Source of the DNA: an uncultured Bacteroidales bacterium | Lineage (GTDB): Bacteria > Bacteroidota > Bacteroidia > Bacteroidales > ML635J-15 | Reading direction: 5' to 3' | DNA: 37,974 nucleotides | Assembly: GCA_937982115.1 (NCBI GenBank) | Contig: CALJNE010000076.1 | Span: 1 to 37,974 of the forward strand | Position numbers and translations under genes: made by a program | The notes under the pieces: generated by a model | Databases searched by the model: none | What the model saw: the letters and a program-made list of their open reading frames with translations, nothing else | What the model was told of the DNA's origin: nothing | Part shown: positions 6,340 to 37,974 of the stretch, in pieces | Numbering within the stretch: position 1 is the stretch's first letter | Layout of the letters: every line of letters begins with the position of its first letter

Positions 6340-6369
6340 TTGGTATTTAAAAAAAACTATATATCTTTG
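6340..6369 (+). promoter_or_regulatory. tRNA-Val promoter
   Basis: TTG at 6340-6342 and TATCTTTG at 6362-6369 are separated by 19 bp, the spacing expected for Bacteroidetes housekeeping sigma promoters. The -7 box ends 13 bp before the mature tRNA 5' end. Confidence 0.75.
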
Positions 6370-6381
6370 CATCGCTTTTAA

Positions 6382-6830
<449 letters not shown>

Positions 6831-6846
<16 letters not shown>

Positions 6847-6886
6847 CATATAAGGGTTTCAGTTATGAAGCCCTATTTTTTTATCT
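6831..6886 (+). repeat. 56 bp direct repeat, right copy
   Basis: Second copy of the tRNA-Val 3' end and terminator (see 6442-6497). The terminator hairpin here is 6853-6874 followed by A and seven Ts. On the minus strand its T-run encodes the last codons and stop of the TonB-C-like gene. Confidence 0.92.
6853..6882 (+). terminator. Duplicated tRNA-Val terminator
   Basis: Same 8 bp stem AGGGTTTC/GAAGCCCT and loop AGTTAT as the original, with a seven-T run. It could end any transcript of the nuclease ORF. Because of its symmetry it may also affect the convergent minus-strand gene that ends inside it. Confidence 0.8.
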
Positions 6887-26616: not shown

Positions 26617-29600
26617 ATGGAAAGTTTCTTAAGCAAAAGTTTGTTTATTGCCTCTTATTTTCTTGTTTTTAATATTTTTTTCCCTAATTCATCAAACGAA
26701 AATAATTGCAGGAATAACAACAAAAATAATTATGAAAAAATGTGGCAAGAAGTACAAAAATTTGAAGCTGACGGCCTTCCTAAATCAGCTTTAGCAAAAG
26801 TTAACGAAATTTATGATCTGGCTATTAAAGAAAAAAATAATGAACAAATCGTTAAAGCAGTAATTTACCGAATAAAATATATTGCAATTACCGAAGATTC
26901 CGGACAAGAAGCTGCAATAAAACAACTTAACCAGGATATTACTGCTGTTGAGCAACCGGCTAAAGCATTTTTAAACTTATTACTCGGAATAACATATCTT
27001 GAATATTACAATTACAATTCTTATGTAATTGATCAAATGTCTGTTACTTCTGAATTCGAAAACTCAGACTTTAAAACCTGGGACAAGAATAAATTCAAAA
27101 CCGAAATAATCAAAAATTACAACCTTGCTCTCGATGAAAGTCTAAAATCAATTCCTATCAATGAATTTCCAGAATTAATAGAATACGCCAATGAATCAGC
27201 TTTGAGGTATCCAACTGTTTTCGACTTTATGTGCAGTTATGTTATTCAAAATCTTCAAAGCCGAAATTATTACTATTATTATTATGGTGGCAACCCAGAC
27301 ACTGATAAAAATATTACAGAAACAGGATATTTTGCTCCTGCTAATGAATTTTGTCTTTTCCCAATCACCGAGGACTCATTAAATTTCAATGTAAATGTTT
27401 TAAGAATTTACCAAAAATGGTTATCAAAACGAATTTCTGACACTAAAAACTCTGAAGCTTTCGTGGTTGCAGATCTTTCAAGATTAACATTTTTGAAAGA
27501 AAATGTAAAATCAAGTAAAACTAACAGCTTTTATGAAAAATCTCTTTTAAATCTTCACGAAAAATTTTATAAAGACCCTATCCTACTTTTAATTGATTAT
27601 AATCTTGCTGAATATTACTTTAATCTTTCAAACTCCTACATTCCATCAGATCCAACAACAAAAAAATATGCAGCTTATAGAAAAACAGCATGGGAACTTT
27701 TGAGCAATGTAATCGAAATGTATCCAAAATCACCATATACAAATCAATGCATAAACCTTAAAAATACAATAGAAAACAAAGATATATCCTTCGAAGCAAA
27801 AAACTCTGCACCTATTGGAAAATCGTTTCCTATAAAAATCAACTACAGAAATTTCGACAAAATCTATCTAACAGTTCTAAATGTGGATTATTTTAAGTTT
27901 CTTGACTTTAAAAAATCTTACTATGATGATAATTATTTCAAAGACATTTTAAAATTCTCAAAAACTGTAATATCAAACAAAGAAATCTTACTACCCCCAG
28001 CTGACGACTTCAATCAACATTCAGTTGAATACCTGATGGAGCCGCTCGAAAAAGGTTTTTACATAATAATACTACATGCAACTCCCTCGCTTTCAAATAA
28101 AAATAATATTGTTGCACAAAACAATATTTTTGTAACAGATCTTACAATCACAAAATCAAAATTAAATAAAAACAAAAATTATTTATACATTTTCAACAGC
28201 AACACCGGGAAACCTGTTTCAAATGCAAAAGTATTGTTATATAAATATGAGTATTCTTATGTTAAAAGAGATTACATATATGATAAATTTGCAGAATTAA
28301 CATCGGACGAATATGGAATTGTTACCGTAAACAATAATAAAATTGACAATTACTATTCTAACATCAGAATAGATGTAATCACTACGAATGATTTTTATTC
28401 GGAAAGTTCATATATTTATAAAGACTATGATTCAAACGAATCAACCCAAACTTTAGTAAAACTATTCACCGACAGAGCTATATACCGTCCCGGTCAAACA
28501 GTTTATTTCAAAGGTATTTGCACTGAATTCAAAAATGGAAATCATACTTTACTAACCAATTACACAACAACAGTTTTCTTAAAAGACGTTAATTATCAGG
28601 TTGTTTCGGAGCTTTCATTAAAAACTAACGAATTTGGCAGCTTTAACGGAAGTTTTCAAATTCCAACTGGTGTGCTAACCGGCAACTTTACGATAGAAAC
28701 TCATGGAGGCACCATTACTGTAAAAGTAGAAGAATATAAAAGACCTAATTTTGAAATTGAATTTAAACCAATAGAAGGTGAGTATAGAATAAATGATAGT
28801 ATTTATGTCGAAGGTACTGTTAAATCTTATGCCGGATATCCGATTCCAAATGCAAAAGTAAAATATCGAATTCAACGAAATCCATATTGGTGGTATTACT
28901 GGAGAGGAAATCTAAAAGCTGAAGAAATTGCATTCGGCAAACTGACAACCGACGATAATGGAAATTTTAAAATCGGATTTATTGCTTCGGCCGAAAATTT
29001 CGATGAACTCAATAACTATATTTACTATGGCTATTCAATTTTTGTGGATGCAACCGACATTAATGGTGAAACTCAATCAGCTTCAAAAACTGTTTATGCT
29101 TCATCTGTTGCTTATAGTCTATCAACTGATATGCTACCAATTACTGAAATCTCAAAAATTGATACCCTCAAAATCACTGCAACAAATGTATCAGGATCAT
29201 CAATTAATACTGATGTTGACATCGAAATTGTAAAACTTCACGACCCCGAATTATTACTTTCGAAAAGAATCTGGACGCACCCGGATAAAAAACTTTACAC
29301 TATTAACGAATGGTATCAAAAAAATCCCGGCAACGAATTTGAGAACGAAACAAATTTCGATAACTGGGGGATTGAAAAATCTGTATTTAAAACTAAATTT
29401 AACACCAAAAATCAAAAATTAAAATTACCTGACACAAAAAAATGGCAACCCGGAGTTTACAGAATCATACTAAAATCTAAAGATAAATGGGGAAATGATA
29501 TTACCCACAAGCAAAATTTTGTTGTTTTCGATCCTCGTTCATCTAAAATGCCTTTTGTTGGCACTGACTTTTTCTACTGCAACAATAATTCCGCTCAACC

Positions 29601-32600
29601 AGGCGAAATTGTGAAAATATTTGTTGGGTCTTCATATAAAGATACCGAAATGTATTATTTTATTAAAATTAAAGATGAAGTAAGTGCCCGACAAACATTA
29701 AAAATTAATTCAGAAATTAAAAATATCGAAATTCCAATCAACGAAGATTGCAGAGGCGGTATTTCGGTTTATCTTATGTTCATTAAGAATGGCATCACAT
29801 ATCAAAAAACATTTATCATTGATGTGCCATACACAAACAAAATTCTTAATATCAAGTGGACTTCTTTCAGGGATAAAACCTTACCCGGCTCTAAAGAACA
29901 ATGGAAACTGAAAATTACGGATGCTTTTAACAAAACTGAAAATGCAGAATTGTTAGCAAGTTTATACGATGCTTCTCTGGATATTTTTGCTAAAAATTAT
30001 TGGTATCTCGATTATAACAAATACTATCAACCTTCATTTTATTTTGAAAGCAAGTTAATGCAGACTGTAGTTTCAACTTTATCTACCATTGAATTTTACA
30101 AAAGTCCTCTACCTGTTAACATATACGATCCGATACTAAATCTATTTGGTTATGGATATTTTTCCACATATTATTCATATTATGATAATGGAATTTTTAC
30201 AAAAAAAGATGGAAGATACAACTTATTAAAGACAGAGGCCTCAGGAACTGCTATGCCTGGAGCAGCCTTAAAAGACGGAGACGAAAAATTTGCACTTGAA
30301 GAACAAGAATTAACACTTAATATTGACCAAACTATGGATGGCGAGGATATTCCCGGGGGTAAAGATAACATATCTCAAAAACCGCAAATAAGAAGTAATT
30401 TCAACGAAACGGCATTCTTTTATCCTAACTTACAAACAGACAAAAACGGTGAAATTATTCTGAACTTTACAATGCCGGAAAGCCTCACAAGATGGAATTT
30501 CATGGGATTGGCTCACACAAAAGATCTAAAGGTCGGGACTATTACCGCACAGGTCGTAACTGCAAAAGAGCTAATGATAGTGCCAAACTTACCGCGATTC
30601 TTTAGAGAAAATGATGAACAAACAATCTCAATCAAAATCAATAATGTTTCGGATGAACAAATTTCTGGAATTGCCAAAATCGAATTTTACGATGCAGTAA
30701 CTTTAAAAGATATAACATCAGATTTCTTAAAAGATAATCAGGAAAAATCTTTTACGACAATTTCAGGTCAAAGCATAAATACAGAATGGAGTATAAAAAT
30801 ATCAGAAAAGTACAGTGCCGTAGGCGTTAGAATTTTTGCTGTGGGTAAAAACCACTCCGACGGAGAAGAAAGAATTTTACCTGTTTTATCAAACAGAATG
30901 CTTGTTACCGAAGCAAAACCACTACCTGTTAGAAAAGCAGGAGTTACTGAATTCAAATTCCAGAGTTTATTAAATTCTAATCAGTCTTCGACTTTAAAAA
31001 ACCATCGTTTTACCCTCGAATTTACATCTAATCCGGCTTGGTACGCTGTTCAGGCTCTTCCATACATCATGGAATATCCTTATGAATGTGCCGAACAAAC
31101 ATTCTCGAGATTGTATGCAAATCTACTCGCAAGCCATATAGCAAATTCAAATCCTAAAATTAAAAGAGTATTCGATATCTGGAAGTCGTATCCGGATAGT
31201 CAAGCTCTTTTGTCAAATCTCGAAAAAAACCAGGAACTTAAATCCTTAATGCTCGAAGAAACACCATGGCTACTTGACGGAAAAGATGAAACTCAAAGAA
31301 AACAAAGAATTGCGCTACTTTTCGATCTCAACAGAATGAGTACAGAAACTTCTTCGGCAATTAAAAAACTTAGCGAAATGCAAACTATCAACGGTGGTTG
31401 GCCGTGGTTTAAAGGAATGAAAGAAAGTTGGTACATAACCCAACATATTGCTTGCGGTTTCGGAAAATTATCAAAACTCGGAGTTACAGATATTCAAACA
31501 AATTCCACTATTAAAACAATGTCGGAAAAAGCTATTGGTTTTATTGACGACGAACTTGCCGTTAGTTACAAAGAATTGAAAAAATACTGCAACGAGAACT
31601 GTCTTAAACAAGATAATCTCAATTATATCCATATTCATTATCTTTATACTCGTTCGTTCTTCCTTGACAAATACCCCATAAAAAAATCTACACGAGAAGC
31701 TTATGATTACTACTTATCTCAAACAGAAAAATATTGGAAAAACAAAAGCTTTTATATGCAAGGTATGATTGCTGTGGCTTTGTATCGTAATAATAAAATT
31801 ACTGAATACAATAAAATTATTGCCTCATTAAAAGAACATGCCATTACAAACGAAGAAATGGGCATGTACTGGAAATACGACAGAGGCTATTATTGGTACC
31901 AGGCACCAATTGAATCCCAAGCTATGCTTATAGAAGCTTTTGAAGAAAACAATCAAAACAAGACCGAAGTGGAAGAAATGAAAGTATGGTTACTAAAACA
32001 AAAGCAAACTCAAGATTGGAAAACCACAAAAGCTACCGTAGAAGCCATTTACGCCTTGTTAATGAGAGGTACCGACATACTTGCCGACGATGAAATTGCA
32101 GTAATTACAATTGGCGAAATGGTTGTTGATGCCTCTAAAGACCCCGAAATTAAAACTGAGGCAGGGACAGGTTACTTTAAAAAGTCATGGGACGGCACTC
32201 AGGTAAAACCTGAATGGGGAAATATCAGCGTTAAAAAGAATTCTAACACCGTTTCGTGGGGAGCTGTTTACTGGCAATATTTCGAACAACTTGATAAAAT
32301 AAAGCACTTCGAAGAAACTCCTGTAAAAATTAATAAAAAATTATTTGTACAACGTCGCGAAAATGGATTGCCTGTAATTGTTCCTATCGAAAAAGACAAT
32401 AATCTGAAAATTGGAGATAAAGTTACTGTAAGAGTAGAAATCAGAGTTGACAGGGATATGGAATATGTTCATCTGAAAGATATGAGAGCTGCTTGCTTCG
32501 AACCAACAGAATATCTTTCCGGATATAGATACAAAAATGGACTCGGCTATTATCAAAGCATTAGGGATGCCTCTATGAACTTCTTTATAGACTATCTTAG

Positions 32601-32739
32601 AAAAGGTACTTATGTTTTTGAATATGAACTTGTGGTTTCGCAAAAAGGAAATTTCTCAAACGGAATAACAAGCCTGCAATGTATGTATGCTCCCGAATTC
32701 ACATCTCACAGCGAAGGAGTTAGAGTTGTGGTTAAATAA
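26617..32739 (+). CDS. Alpha-2-macroglobulin family protein
   Basis: 2040 aa, probably envelope-exposed. Residues 5-26 are a hydrophobic export signal without a lipobox, followed by an Asn-rich stretch and a helical, TPR-like region (about 40-390). A carboxypeptidase-regulatory-like beta domain is near 525-570, MG2 domain near 617 (FTDRAIYRPGQTVYFKG), and the A2M domain begins near 1267 (YPNLQTDKNGEIILNFTMPESLTRW). The thioester-type motif YPYECAEQT has C1491 and Q1494, followed by the helical toroid (TEDs) with NGGWPWFKG. Family members trap proteases through the thioester. Bacterial homologues usually pair with a PBP1c gene, which is not adjacent here. The large helical N-terminal extension is typical of Bacteroidetes homologues. 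A strong terminator follows. Confidence 0.9.
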   Translation: MESFLSKSLFIASYFLVFNIFFPNSSNENNCRNNNKNNYEKMWQEVQKFEADGLPKSALAKVNEIYDLAIKEKNNEQIVKAVIYRIKYIAITEDSGQEAAIKQLNQDITAVEQPAKAFLNLLLGITYLEYYNYNSYVIDQMSVTSEFENSDFKTWDKNKFKTEIIKNYNLALDESLKSIPINEFPELIEYANESALRYPTVFDFMCSYVIQNLQSRNYYYYYYGGNPDTDKNITETGYFAPANEFCLFPITEDSLNFNVNVLRIYQKWLSKRISDTKNSEAFVVADLSRLTFLKENVKSSKTNSFYEKSLLNLHEKFYKDPILLLIDYNLAEYYFNLSNSYIPSDPTTKKYAAYRKTAWELLSNVIEMYPKSPYTNQCINLKNTIENKDISFEAKNSAPIGKSFPIKINYRNFDKIYLTVLNVDYFKFLDFKKSYYDDNYFKDILKFSKTVISNKEILLPPADDFNQHSVEYLMEPLEKGFYIIILHATPSLSNKNNIVAQNNIFVTDLTITKSKLNKNKNYLYIFNSNTGKPVSNAKVLLYKYEYSYVKRDYIYDKFAELTSDEYGIVTVNNNKIDNYYSNIRIDVITTNDFYSESSYIYKDYDSNESTQTLVKLFTDRAIYRPGQTVYFKGICTEFKNGNHTLLTNYTTTVFLKDVNYQVVSELSLKTNEFGSFNGSFQIPTGVLTGNFTIETHGGTITVKVEEYKRPNFEIEFKPIEGEYRINDSIYVEGTVKSYAGYPIPNAKVKYRIQRNPYWWYYWRGNLKAEEIAFGKLTTDDNGNFKIGFIASAENFDELNNYIYYGYSIFVDATDINGETQSASKTVYASSVAYSLSTDMLPITEISKIDTLKITATNVSGSSINTDVDIEIVKLHDPELLLSKRIWTHPDKKLYTINEWYQKNPGNEFENETNFDNWGIEKSVFKTKFNTKNQKLKLPDTKKWQPGVYRIILKSKDKWGNDITHKQNFVVFDPRSSKMPFVGTDFFYCNNNSAQPGEIVKIFVGSSYKDTEMYYFIKIKDEVSARQTLKINSEIKNIEIPINEDCRGGISVYLMFIKNGITYQKTFIIDVPYTNKILNIKWTSFRDKTLPGSKEQWKLKITDAFNKTENAELLASLYDASLDIFAKNYWYLDYNKYYQPSFYFESKLMQTVVSTLSTIEFYKSPLPVNIYDPILNLFGYGYFSTYYSYYDNGIFTKKDGRYNLLKTEASGTAMPGAALKDGDEKFALEEQELTLNIDQTMDGEDIPGGKDNISQKPQIRSNFNETAFFYPNLQTDKNGEIILNFTMPESLTRWNFMGLAHTKDLKVGTITAQVVTAKELMIVPNLPRFFRENDEQTISIKINNVSDEQISGIAKIEFYDAVTLKDITSDFLKDNQEKSFTTISGQSINTEWSIKISEKYSAVGVRIFAVGKNHSDGEERILPVLSNRMLVTEAKPLPVRKAGVTEFKFQSLLNSNQSSTLKNHRFTLEFTSNPAWYAVQALPYIMEYPYECAEQTFSRLYANLLASHIANSNPKIKRVFDIWKSYPDSQALLSNLEKNQELKSLMLEETPWLLDGKDETQRKQRIALLFDLNRMSTETSSAIKKLSEMQTINGGWPWFKGMKESWYITQHIACGFGKLSKLGVTDIQTNSTIKTMSEKAIGFIDDELAVSYKELKKYCNENCLKQDNLNYIHIHYLYTRSFFLDKYPIKKSTREAYDYYLSQTEKYWKNKSFYMQGMIAVALYRNNKITEYNKIIASLKEHAITNEEMGMYWKYDRGYYWYQAPIESQAMLIEAFEENNQNKTEVEEMKVWLLKQKQTQDWKTTKATVEAIYALLMRGTDILADDEIAVITIGEMVVDASKDPEIKTEAGTGYFKKSWDGTQVKPEWGNISVKKNSNTVSWGAVYWQYFEQLDKIKHFEETPVKINKKLFVQRRENGLPVIVPIEKDNNLKIGDKVTVRVEIRVDRDMEYVHLKDMRAACFEPTEYLSGYRYKNGLGYYQSIRDASMNFFIDYLRKGTYVFEYELVVSQKGNFSNGITSLQCMYAPEFTSHSEGVRVVVK

Positions 32740-37709: not shown

Positions 37710-37783
37710 TCCTCCTTAGCTCAGTTGGTTAGAGCACCTGACTGTTAATCAGGGGGTCCTAGGTTCAAGTCCTAGAGGGGGAG
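37710..37783 (+). tRNA. tRNA-Asn (anticodon GTT)
   Basis: Full cloverleaf. Acceptor TCCTCCT/AGGGGGA (one T-G), D-arm GCTC/GAGC, anticodon arm CCTGA-CTGTTAA-TCAGG with anticodon GTT, and T-arm CTAGG-TTCAAGT-CCTAG, with discriminator G as expected for tRNA-Asn. CCA not encoded. It is followed by its terminator and then by damaged partial copies. Confidence 0.96.
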
Positions 37784-37785
37784 CA

Positions 37786-37820
37786 AAAACAGTCTGAGAA
37801 TATCAGGCTGTTTTTTTTTT
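37786..37820 (+). terminator. Intrinsic terminator of tRNA-Asn
   Basis: Stem AACAGTCTGA/TCAGGCTGTT (10 bp with one T-G), loop GAATA, ten Ts. It is repeated 99-101 bp downstream with eight Ts. Confidence 0.9.
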
Positions 37821-37884
37821 GCTCAGTGGTTAGAGCATCCCGACAAAGTCGGGAGGGTACTAGGTTCAAGTCCTAGAGGGGGAG
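37821..37884 (+). pseudogene. 5'-truncated, anticodon-less copy of tRNA-Asn
   Basis: GCTCAGTGGTTAGAGCA copies the D-arm with one T missing from the loop (AGTTGG became AGTGG). The 17 nt anticodon arm is replaced by a 17 nt hairpin TCCCGAC-AAA-GTCGGGA (37838-37854). GGGTACTAGGTTCAAG and the rest of the T-arm, acceptor 3' strand and discriminator follow, differing from the real gene by one base (C to A). No 5' acceptor strand is present; the T-run of the first terminator precedes it directly. It cannot function as a normal tRNA. Confidence 0.92.
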
Positions 37885-37886
37885 CA

Positions 37887-37919
37887 AAAACAGTCTGAGA
37901 ATATCAGGCTGTTTTTTTT
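37887..37919 (+). terminator. Duplicated tRNA-Asn terminator
   Basis: Identical stem and loop to the first copy, with eight rather than ten Ts. Confidence 0.85.
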
Positions 37920-37974
37920 GCTCAGTGGTTAGAGCAATAAGAGTTCGGAAGAATGTAATATTACACCATTATTT

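Follow-up and report, generated by a model that had tools for sequence, protein, structure and literature searches.

Hairpin-bearing tRNA gene halves in Bacteroidota are probably the outer edges of a small GIY-YIG element

Beside intact tRNA genes of Bacteroidota and neighbouring phyla lie partial tRNA copies in which a palindromic hairpin replaces the anticodon arm. These chimeras are probably the outer edges of a small element that parasitises tRNA genes and carries a GIY-YIG nuclease gene of ~90 residues together with the hairpins. The arrangement is real, recurrent and, as far as we searched, undescribed. The window analysed here comprises 37,974 nucleotides of an uncultured Bacteroidales bacterium and represents an entire contig of a 2.69 Mb draft genome. 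Within it, TCCCGAC-N-GTCGGGA occurs only at the two chimeras that the first-pass annotation had described beside tRNA-Val and tRNA-Asn; the pattern TCCCGACN{3,12}GTCGGGA matched these two sites and had no match in 100 shuffles.

The Val locus, with all features on the forward strand, begins with the motif TATCTTTG (TAnnTTTG; 6362..6369), which we take to be the -7 promoter-like consensus of Bacteroidota, followed by a complete tRNA-Val (TAC) at 6383..6458, identified by both ARAGORN and Rfam (RF00005, 73 bits), and by its terminator at 6460..6497, a repeat with a second copy behind the chimera. An ORF of 89 residues (6511..6780) encoding a GIY-YIG nuclease (PF01541, E 3.7e-16) is located between the terminator and the chimera; its TTG start is a mechanical choice and uncertain. 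The ORF ends inside the hairpin, as its C-terminal GSEHPD is encoded by the D-loop copy and the hairpin, and its stop codon TAA lies within the hairpin loop. The chimera consists of a repeated D-loop/D-stem remnant TGGTTCAGAGCA (6759..6770), the hairpin TCCCGAC-TAACG-GTCGGGA found by pattern match in place of the anticodon arm (6771..6789; 19 nt, rather than the 17 nt first given), and a copy of the variable loop, T-arm, acceptor 3' strand and terminator (6790..6886). This copy is made of GGGTCAATGGTTCGAA (6790-6805), a 25-nt interruption (6806-6830), and the remaining T-arm, acceptor 3' strand and terminator (6831-6886), which are 96% identical to the original. An interruption of similar form (~25 nt, with CTCACGA and AGGAG) is also seen at loci L235 and L138, from a genus relative and a distant Bacteroidales genome, so it may be functional.

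The Asn locus, also on the forward strand, contains a complete tRNA-Asn (GTT) at 37710..37784 (ARAGORN; Rfam, 70 bits) and a terminator at 37785..37819, recognised by its sequence and as a repeat. The chimera follows with a D-arm copy GCTCAGTGGTTAGAGCA (37821..37837), in which the D-loop is one T short, the pattern-matched hairpin TCCCGAC-AAA-GTCGGGA replacing the anticodon arm (37838..37854), and a copy of the tRNA 3' half and terminator (37855..37919), such that 37754-37818 and 37855-37919 form a 65-nt repeat of 98% identity. A third repeat of the D-arm, without a hairpin, lies at 37920..37936. As the window is the whole contig, which ends at 37974, the array is cut 38 nt past this third D-arm; for the contig end, no match was found among the other contigs, and the locus represents a truncated form without a visible ORF. 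Thus, the body of each copy matches the adjacent tRNA as first described, except that the T-arm copy of Val is interrupted; the loss of one D-loop T is not general, since the T is kept in L137. Elsewhere, the window holds an ORF of 2040 residues (26617-32739).

Other tRNA genes of the same genome bear similar marks. The pattern TCCCGAN{1,25}TCGGGA has 12 matches in the whole genome (2.7 Mb), six of them in tRNA copies, compared to two for the reversed control. By eye, beside tRNA-Asp (L168) a unit of 191-192 nt occurs three times in tandem, its hairpin placed in the copied T-stem, and tRNA-Pro (L169) is accompanied by a core of D-loop, hairpin and T-arm. At tRNA-Ala (L170), a decayed GIY-YIG frame precedes an interrupted copy of the T-arm and acceptor. 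The three loci lie on contigs C2, C23 and C29, respectively; together with Val and Asn, five tRNA genes of this genome have been touched.

Searches of other genomes argue for the specific, recurrent process proposed in the first-pass annotation. The motif GAGCA-TCCCGA-N-TCGGGA-GGGT was found in 11 of the 296 genomes of a phylum sample and its reversed control in none. A wider contig scan yielded at least 118 genome stretches with the chimera pattern, and most of the listed chimera records are titled Bacteroidota or neighbouring FCB phyla. Together with three loci from a viral collection (IMG/VR), these stretches hold at least 163 matches, corresponding to at least 161 distinct chimeras at 121 loci, so that the chimera is far from confined to the two loci of the window. 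The scan demanded GAGCA, TCCCGA, TCGGGA and GGG, which biases both the set of tRNAs recovered and the innermost positions. Seven loci (L053, L132, L141, L155, L163, L166 and L167) have no tRNA flanks and resemble chance matches. The last two are from IMG/VR, where only L165 (1959 bases covered of a 42.6 kb contig) contains the element, here at tRNA-Lys with four chimeras and a GIY-YIG frame.

The chimeras are closely tied to intact tRNA genes. Among the 161 listed, 67 have at least 1.5 kb on both sides, and 61 of these 67 lie near an intact tRNA on the same strand (at most 1.5 kb upstream or 0.6 kb downstream of the chimera), compared to 284 of 1340 points drawn at random from these loci. Among the matches listed, Val(TAC) and Lys(TTT) account for most neighbours, joined by Lys(CTT), Val(GAC), Arg, Met, Asn, Gly, Ala and Thr. 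The copied half should track its neighbour, as the first-pass annotation had it, and it does: in an unthresholded comparison by best isotype against a panel of 126 tRNAs, leaving aside 48 unassigned and four too short of the 161, the neighbour fits best in 91 of the 109 assignable chimeras listed, with nine ties and nine against (51 of 58 upstream copies and 40 of 51 downstream copies). In many of the exceptions the copy is interrupted by an insertion or a second hairpin; second palindromes lie in the T-arm of, for example, L064, L106, L131 and L149. With score thresholds the agreement among the matches listed rises to 37 of 37 and 50 of 51, but thresholds favour matches and we thus prefer the unthresholded count.

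The upstream and downstream copies differ in which part of the tRNA they keep. In the 51 upstream copies among the matches listed, the 5' half is retained with an identity of 0.92-1.00 across 26 positions and the 3' side is lost within ~15 nt; in the 50 downstream copies listed, the 5' side is reduced to ~13 nt and the 3' half persists at ~0.6-1.0 identity, the innermost bases in both being fixed by the search pattern. Judged from these profiles, they look like the two halves of one tRNA gene split at the anticodon arm. The upstream 5' halves also show that copying is not limited to the stretch from D-arm to terminator, as had been assumed. In complete loci, the left part is composed of the native leader, the tRNA 5' half, a hairpin, a short T-arm piece and a spacer, and the right part of the complete tRNA, its terminator, the GIY-YIG ORF, a short D-loop piece, a hairpin, the tRNA 3' half and the native flank.

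An empty allele provides a direct comparison. In Algoriphagus, the tRNA-Lys locus beside Pro-Arg is polymorphic for the element: at 13 of 30 loci, several of the 30 being truncated by contig ends, tRNA-Lys is accompanied by a GIY-YIG frame or a hairpin copy of the GAGCA type, and at least L203, L206 and L227 hold a hairpin in the T-arm of the retained copies. In L201 and L207, it is the leader of the outermost 5' chimera that aligned well with the leader of the empty allele L204 (scores 61 and 62), whereas the leader of the intact tRNA in these two loci aligned with it poorly (scores 20 and 14). In addition, the right flank of the empty allele resumes past the 3' chimera of L207 (score 203); the slice of L090 aligned with this flank mainly over the terminator (score 65). 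As leader and flank thus match the outer edges of the chimeras, the intact tRNA and the ORF lie inside the insertion at this locus, a comparison that covers one tRNA (Lys) in one genus, with the right flank matched in one carrier. Of the three origins first offered for the copies, namely an element end, a decoy or a mark of repaired cleavage, the element end comes closest; at the level of sequence, nothing pointed to either of the other two.

The same geometry bears on a reading without any incoming element, in which a GIY-YIG nuclease breaks DNA at or near a tRNA gene, after which inaccurate repair would duplicate portions of the tRNA and leave hairpins as scars. It accords with the tandem units on both sides of the tRNA in L077, L090, L106 and L123, and with the terminators of the intact tRNA and the downstream copy, which share homology in 27 of 49 loci, reaching a tandem-array-like length of at least 86 nt in 11 of the 27. 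Local duplication therefore occurs too. There is also a precedent in the free-standing GIY-YIG nuclease SegB of phages T4 and T6, which the accessible parts of the reports tie to inheritance of the tRNA region and segmental amplification, with accordion-like locus arrays in T6 (PMC13096335) and a proposed microhomology recombination between the tRNA 5' region and the nuclease gene 3' region (PMC13096335, PMC2988022). However, in 33 of the 39 loci with upstream copies the outermost copy and the intact tRNA share no more than 5 nt of exact leader sequence, and terminator homology is absent from 22 of 49 downstream copies, neither of which would be expected unless the sequences have decayed. Moreover, local amplification leaves unexplained why different tRNAs and phyla share one hairpin, and we regard it as unlikely. 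A mirror-image version, in which a broken end copies its missing half from a sister, predicts homologous leaders; as the leaders are mostly unmatched, we retained it only as part of this reading.

Insertion of an element remains our preferred reading of the complete loci. In 11 of the 39 loci, the motif TAnnTTTG is found no more than 26 nt ahead of the outermost copy, and in none of the 39 ahead of the intact tRNA; it is present at 16 of the 71 tRNAs that have no upstream copies. For right-only loci such as the tRNA-Val of the window, splitting of the tRNA gene and insertion behind its terminator fit equally well. The age order of the arrays was left unused: in left arrays the inner units are closer to the intact tRNA in 12 of 13 cases, mainly owing to the unique outermost leader, and in right arrays three inner, three equal and five outer units were counted.

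The hairpin itself is conserved as a paired structure. Stem position 7, which was free in the search, is complementary in 140 of the 149 hairpins among the matches listed (T-A 74, C-G 57, A-T 8 and G-C 1), and the length among those listed is mostly 17-20 nt. The left and right hairpins of one locus resemble each other, with a distance of 2.2 compared to 4.1 after shuffling (13 loci; none of 2000 shuffles as low). By eye, a palindrome is present in every recognisable tRNA copy listed for other clades, apart from decayed loci such as L018, and related hairpins sit at other places there: in the T-loop of an Asn copy (L044), in the variable loop of an Asn-like copy (L194), and in the anticodon/variable region or T-loop of Met copies (L181, L192 and L193). 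The site of the hairpin therefore seems to be clade-specific.

A stem that covaries, a length near that of an anticodon arm and the recognition of some chimeras as tRNAs by Rfam or ARAGORN are what one would expect if the chimeras acted as RNA, either as tRNA-like decoys or as regulatory leaders or trailers of the nuclease or tRNA, with the hairpin providing a harmless fold. Yet the 5' strands of the acceptor and D-stem are often missing from downstream copies, and the acceptor 3' strand from most upstream copies, so many chimeras cannot form a cloverleaf, and an RNA role of this kind is improbable. The chimeras do mislead annotation programs: ARAGORN reports the Asn chimera of the window (37812-37885) as tRNA-Phe(aaa), and several chimeras pass the Rfam tRNA cut-off. 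Because both programs report chimeras as tRNAs, public annotations may contain them as false tRNAs. Odd tRNA calls (Stop, ???) were also seen at chimeras of relatives.

The first-pass annotation had proposed a small element or enzyme with its own hairpin; the proposal gains support, and the component it overlooked is the GIY-YIG gene. Among the matches listed, a GIY-YIG frame precedes 30 of the 35 distinct first downstream chimeras, drawn from 52 full-flank tRNAs with a chimera, and was absent from the place searched in the other five. Of the 11 listed tRNAs with upstream copies only, three have a downstream GIY-YIG frame and eight do not; in two of these eight (L056 and L073, at tRNA-Gly), a frame lies between the 5' chimera and the tRNA. 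Counted by match, a frame ends at most 150 nt upstream of, or runs past, 53 of the 163 matches listed, and 15 frames among those listed are still open at the chimera. The catalytic Tyr, Gly, Arg, His and Glu are, gaps aside, invariant (100%) in the 66 tRNA-linked frames among the matches listed, and all 220 usable nuclease pairs, many of them near saturation, have a dN/dS below 1. Judged from the nuclease tree, the clades appear largely to follow tRNA isotype, with 13 label changes over 65 labelled rows compared to 27-35 in 500 shuffles, on a tree that is weakly resolved as its 106 proteins share few columns.

Profile match (PF01541), conserved core and fold model all place the protein in the GIY-YIG superfamily. 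The model, built from an alignment of 35 sequences (pLDDT 79.7), is predicted to be closest among PDB folds to the UPF0213 protein 1zg2 (E 1.2e-4), followed by Slx1 structures with weak E-values from 1.4e-2, whereas I-TevI would match only at 0.48. The solved relatives found by sequence, 1zg2 and 1ywl, are also UPF0213 proteins, making UPF0213/Slx1-type nucleases the nearest known group in both sequence and fold. No NCBIfam family matched two of the nuclease proteins, PADLOC assigned none of its anti-phage defence families to the window nuclease, and no match to phages and plasmids was found at 1e-5. We found no paper joining any two of UPF0213, GIY-YIG and YhbQ, and know of no mobile or tRNA context for UPF0213 proteins.

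Taken together, we propose that the nuclease is specific for a single kind of tRNA gene, or for the tRNA halves and hairpin, and would break the gene at the anticodon arm; the fold, conservation and isotype specificity of the enzyme, together with where the tRNA gene is split, suggest such cutting. The element would then be inserted by repair on a donor copy, with the tRNA halves acting as homology arms and hairpins left at the two junctions, and only insertions that keep one working tRNA would survive. In right-only forms such as the tRNA-Val of the window, the tRNA may have been completed by a new 3' half. The patchy occurrence in Algoriphagus and the empty allele fit a homing endonuclease gene. 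The split copies lack the anticodon arm, and carriers retain an intact tRNA gene whose anticodon arm is unchanged. Low expression behind the terminator, or activity on hairpin or branched DNA only, would fit the tolerance of carriers for the enzyme; Slx1 processes branched DNA (entry 6seh).

The complete tRNA inside the insertion could also be a resistant, recoded antidote to a nuclease that destroys the host tRNA gene, making loss of the element lethal. Such an antidote finds no support, because the anticodon arms of carriers and most non-carriers are the same: in the genus of the window, all four carriers share one Val(TAC) arm with 19 of the 22 loci scored as lacking the element; in one of these 22 (L238), a second partial copy extends past the contig end. 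Similarly, the Algoriphagus tRNA-Lys stem ATACA/TGTAT is found with the element in 13 of 26 loci and without it in 13 of 26, and one (L227) of the four TAACA/TGTTA loci holds two hairpin-bearing 3' copies, leaving a cleave-and-rescue system highly improbable. Decay is visible at some loci, including tRNA-Ala of the window's genome, yet mere tRNA pseudogene debris with unrelated interspersed palindromes is scarcely credible given that hairpin position, isotype tracking, nuclease association and stem pairing are all far from random.

Integrative elements at tRNA genes insert inside the gene, restore a functional tRNA and leave the displaced 3' piece in place. The present arrangement resembles them in the insertion within a tRNA gene, the restored working tRNA and the displaced 3' piece, but differs in the hairpin that replaces the anticodon arm at the junctions and in the displaced 5' halves. 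A recombinase-borne element was rejected, as the 262-460 nt from tRNA end to hairpin in 23 of 25 GIY-bearing downstream loci among the matches listed hold the GIY-YIG frame and leave no space for a recombinase; in the Val insert no recombinase was found, and the only ORF of at least 80 residues is the GIY-YIG frame. Group I or II introns were likewise rejected, as Rfam at its gathering threshold returned only tRNAs (three in the window and 34 in 12 element loci).

The best functional parallel in the accessible literature is SegB, since in both systems a GIY-YIG gene adjoins tRNA genes. The present element, however, resides in bacterial chromosomes and has a fold near UPF0213/Slx1 rather than I-TevI. 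Moreover, each of its clades is largely devoted to one isotype and is flanked by tRNA halves and palindromes, features absent from the descriptions of SegB as far as these were available. Both the family to which the nuclease belongs and homing into tRNA regions as a concept are already known. For the split-and-restore anatomy with palindromic borders we know of no precedent. A search of open-licence full texts found no description of a split tRNA, hairpin and GIY-YIG gene together, although one may exist; PMC12455944, in the part accessible, was unrelated.

A further parallel is offered by REP/RAYT systems, in which, in the descriptions accessible, a small DNA enzyme is likewise tied to palindromes. 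Here the enzyme is of the GIY-YIG type, PF01541 being the only domain in the window ORF, rather than a Y1 tyrosine transposase, and the TCCCGA palindrome, with its 12 copies in 2.7 Mb, is not a high-copy dispersed repeat. Of the 54 closed frames of lower-scoring GIY-YIG homologues, found with a profile built from chimera-linked frames, 20 lie at most 700 nt behind a tRNA on the same strand; the remaining 34 have none there, and some of them lie at contig ends or in arrays. Hairpins with arms of at least 7 nt just behind the tRNA-free genes (13 of 34, compared to 24 of 120 control ORFs) are unconvincing alone. Five tRNA-free homologues (L026, L027, L028, L043 and L182) lie near another palindrome, ATGCTGAA-N-TTCAGCAT. 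This palindrome has 27-47 copies in each of four genomes (G301, G317, G318 and G338), one in G337 and none in the window's genome, with no match of the reversed control in any of the six, and G318 carries two copies on each side of the GIY-YIG gene, which suggests a RAYT-like pairing of nuclease and palindromic repeat. Tentatively, an Slx1-like, structure-selective GIY-YIG nuclease and a palindrome might form a new class of minimal mobile element, with one branch that splits individual tRNA genes and carries or rebuilds a complete tRNA, which would let the host survive, and a sister branch that spreads free palindromic repeats across Bacteroidota genomes as a counterpart of RAYT.

If our reading holds, a set of small GIY-YIG genes of Bacteroidota would be parasites of tRNA genes with isotype-specific targets, and five tRNA loci of a single genome would carry their marks. 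It would also account for the odd hairpin-bearing tRNA calls of annotation programs. Furthermore, it would provide a tractable natural case of a selfish element within essential genes and connect a probably structure-selective nuclease with palindromic repeats in a way open to testing, and the function of UPF0213-like proteins would become directly testable.
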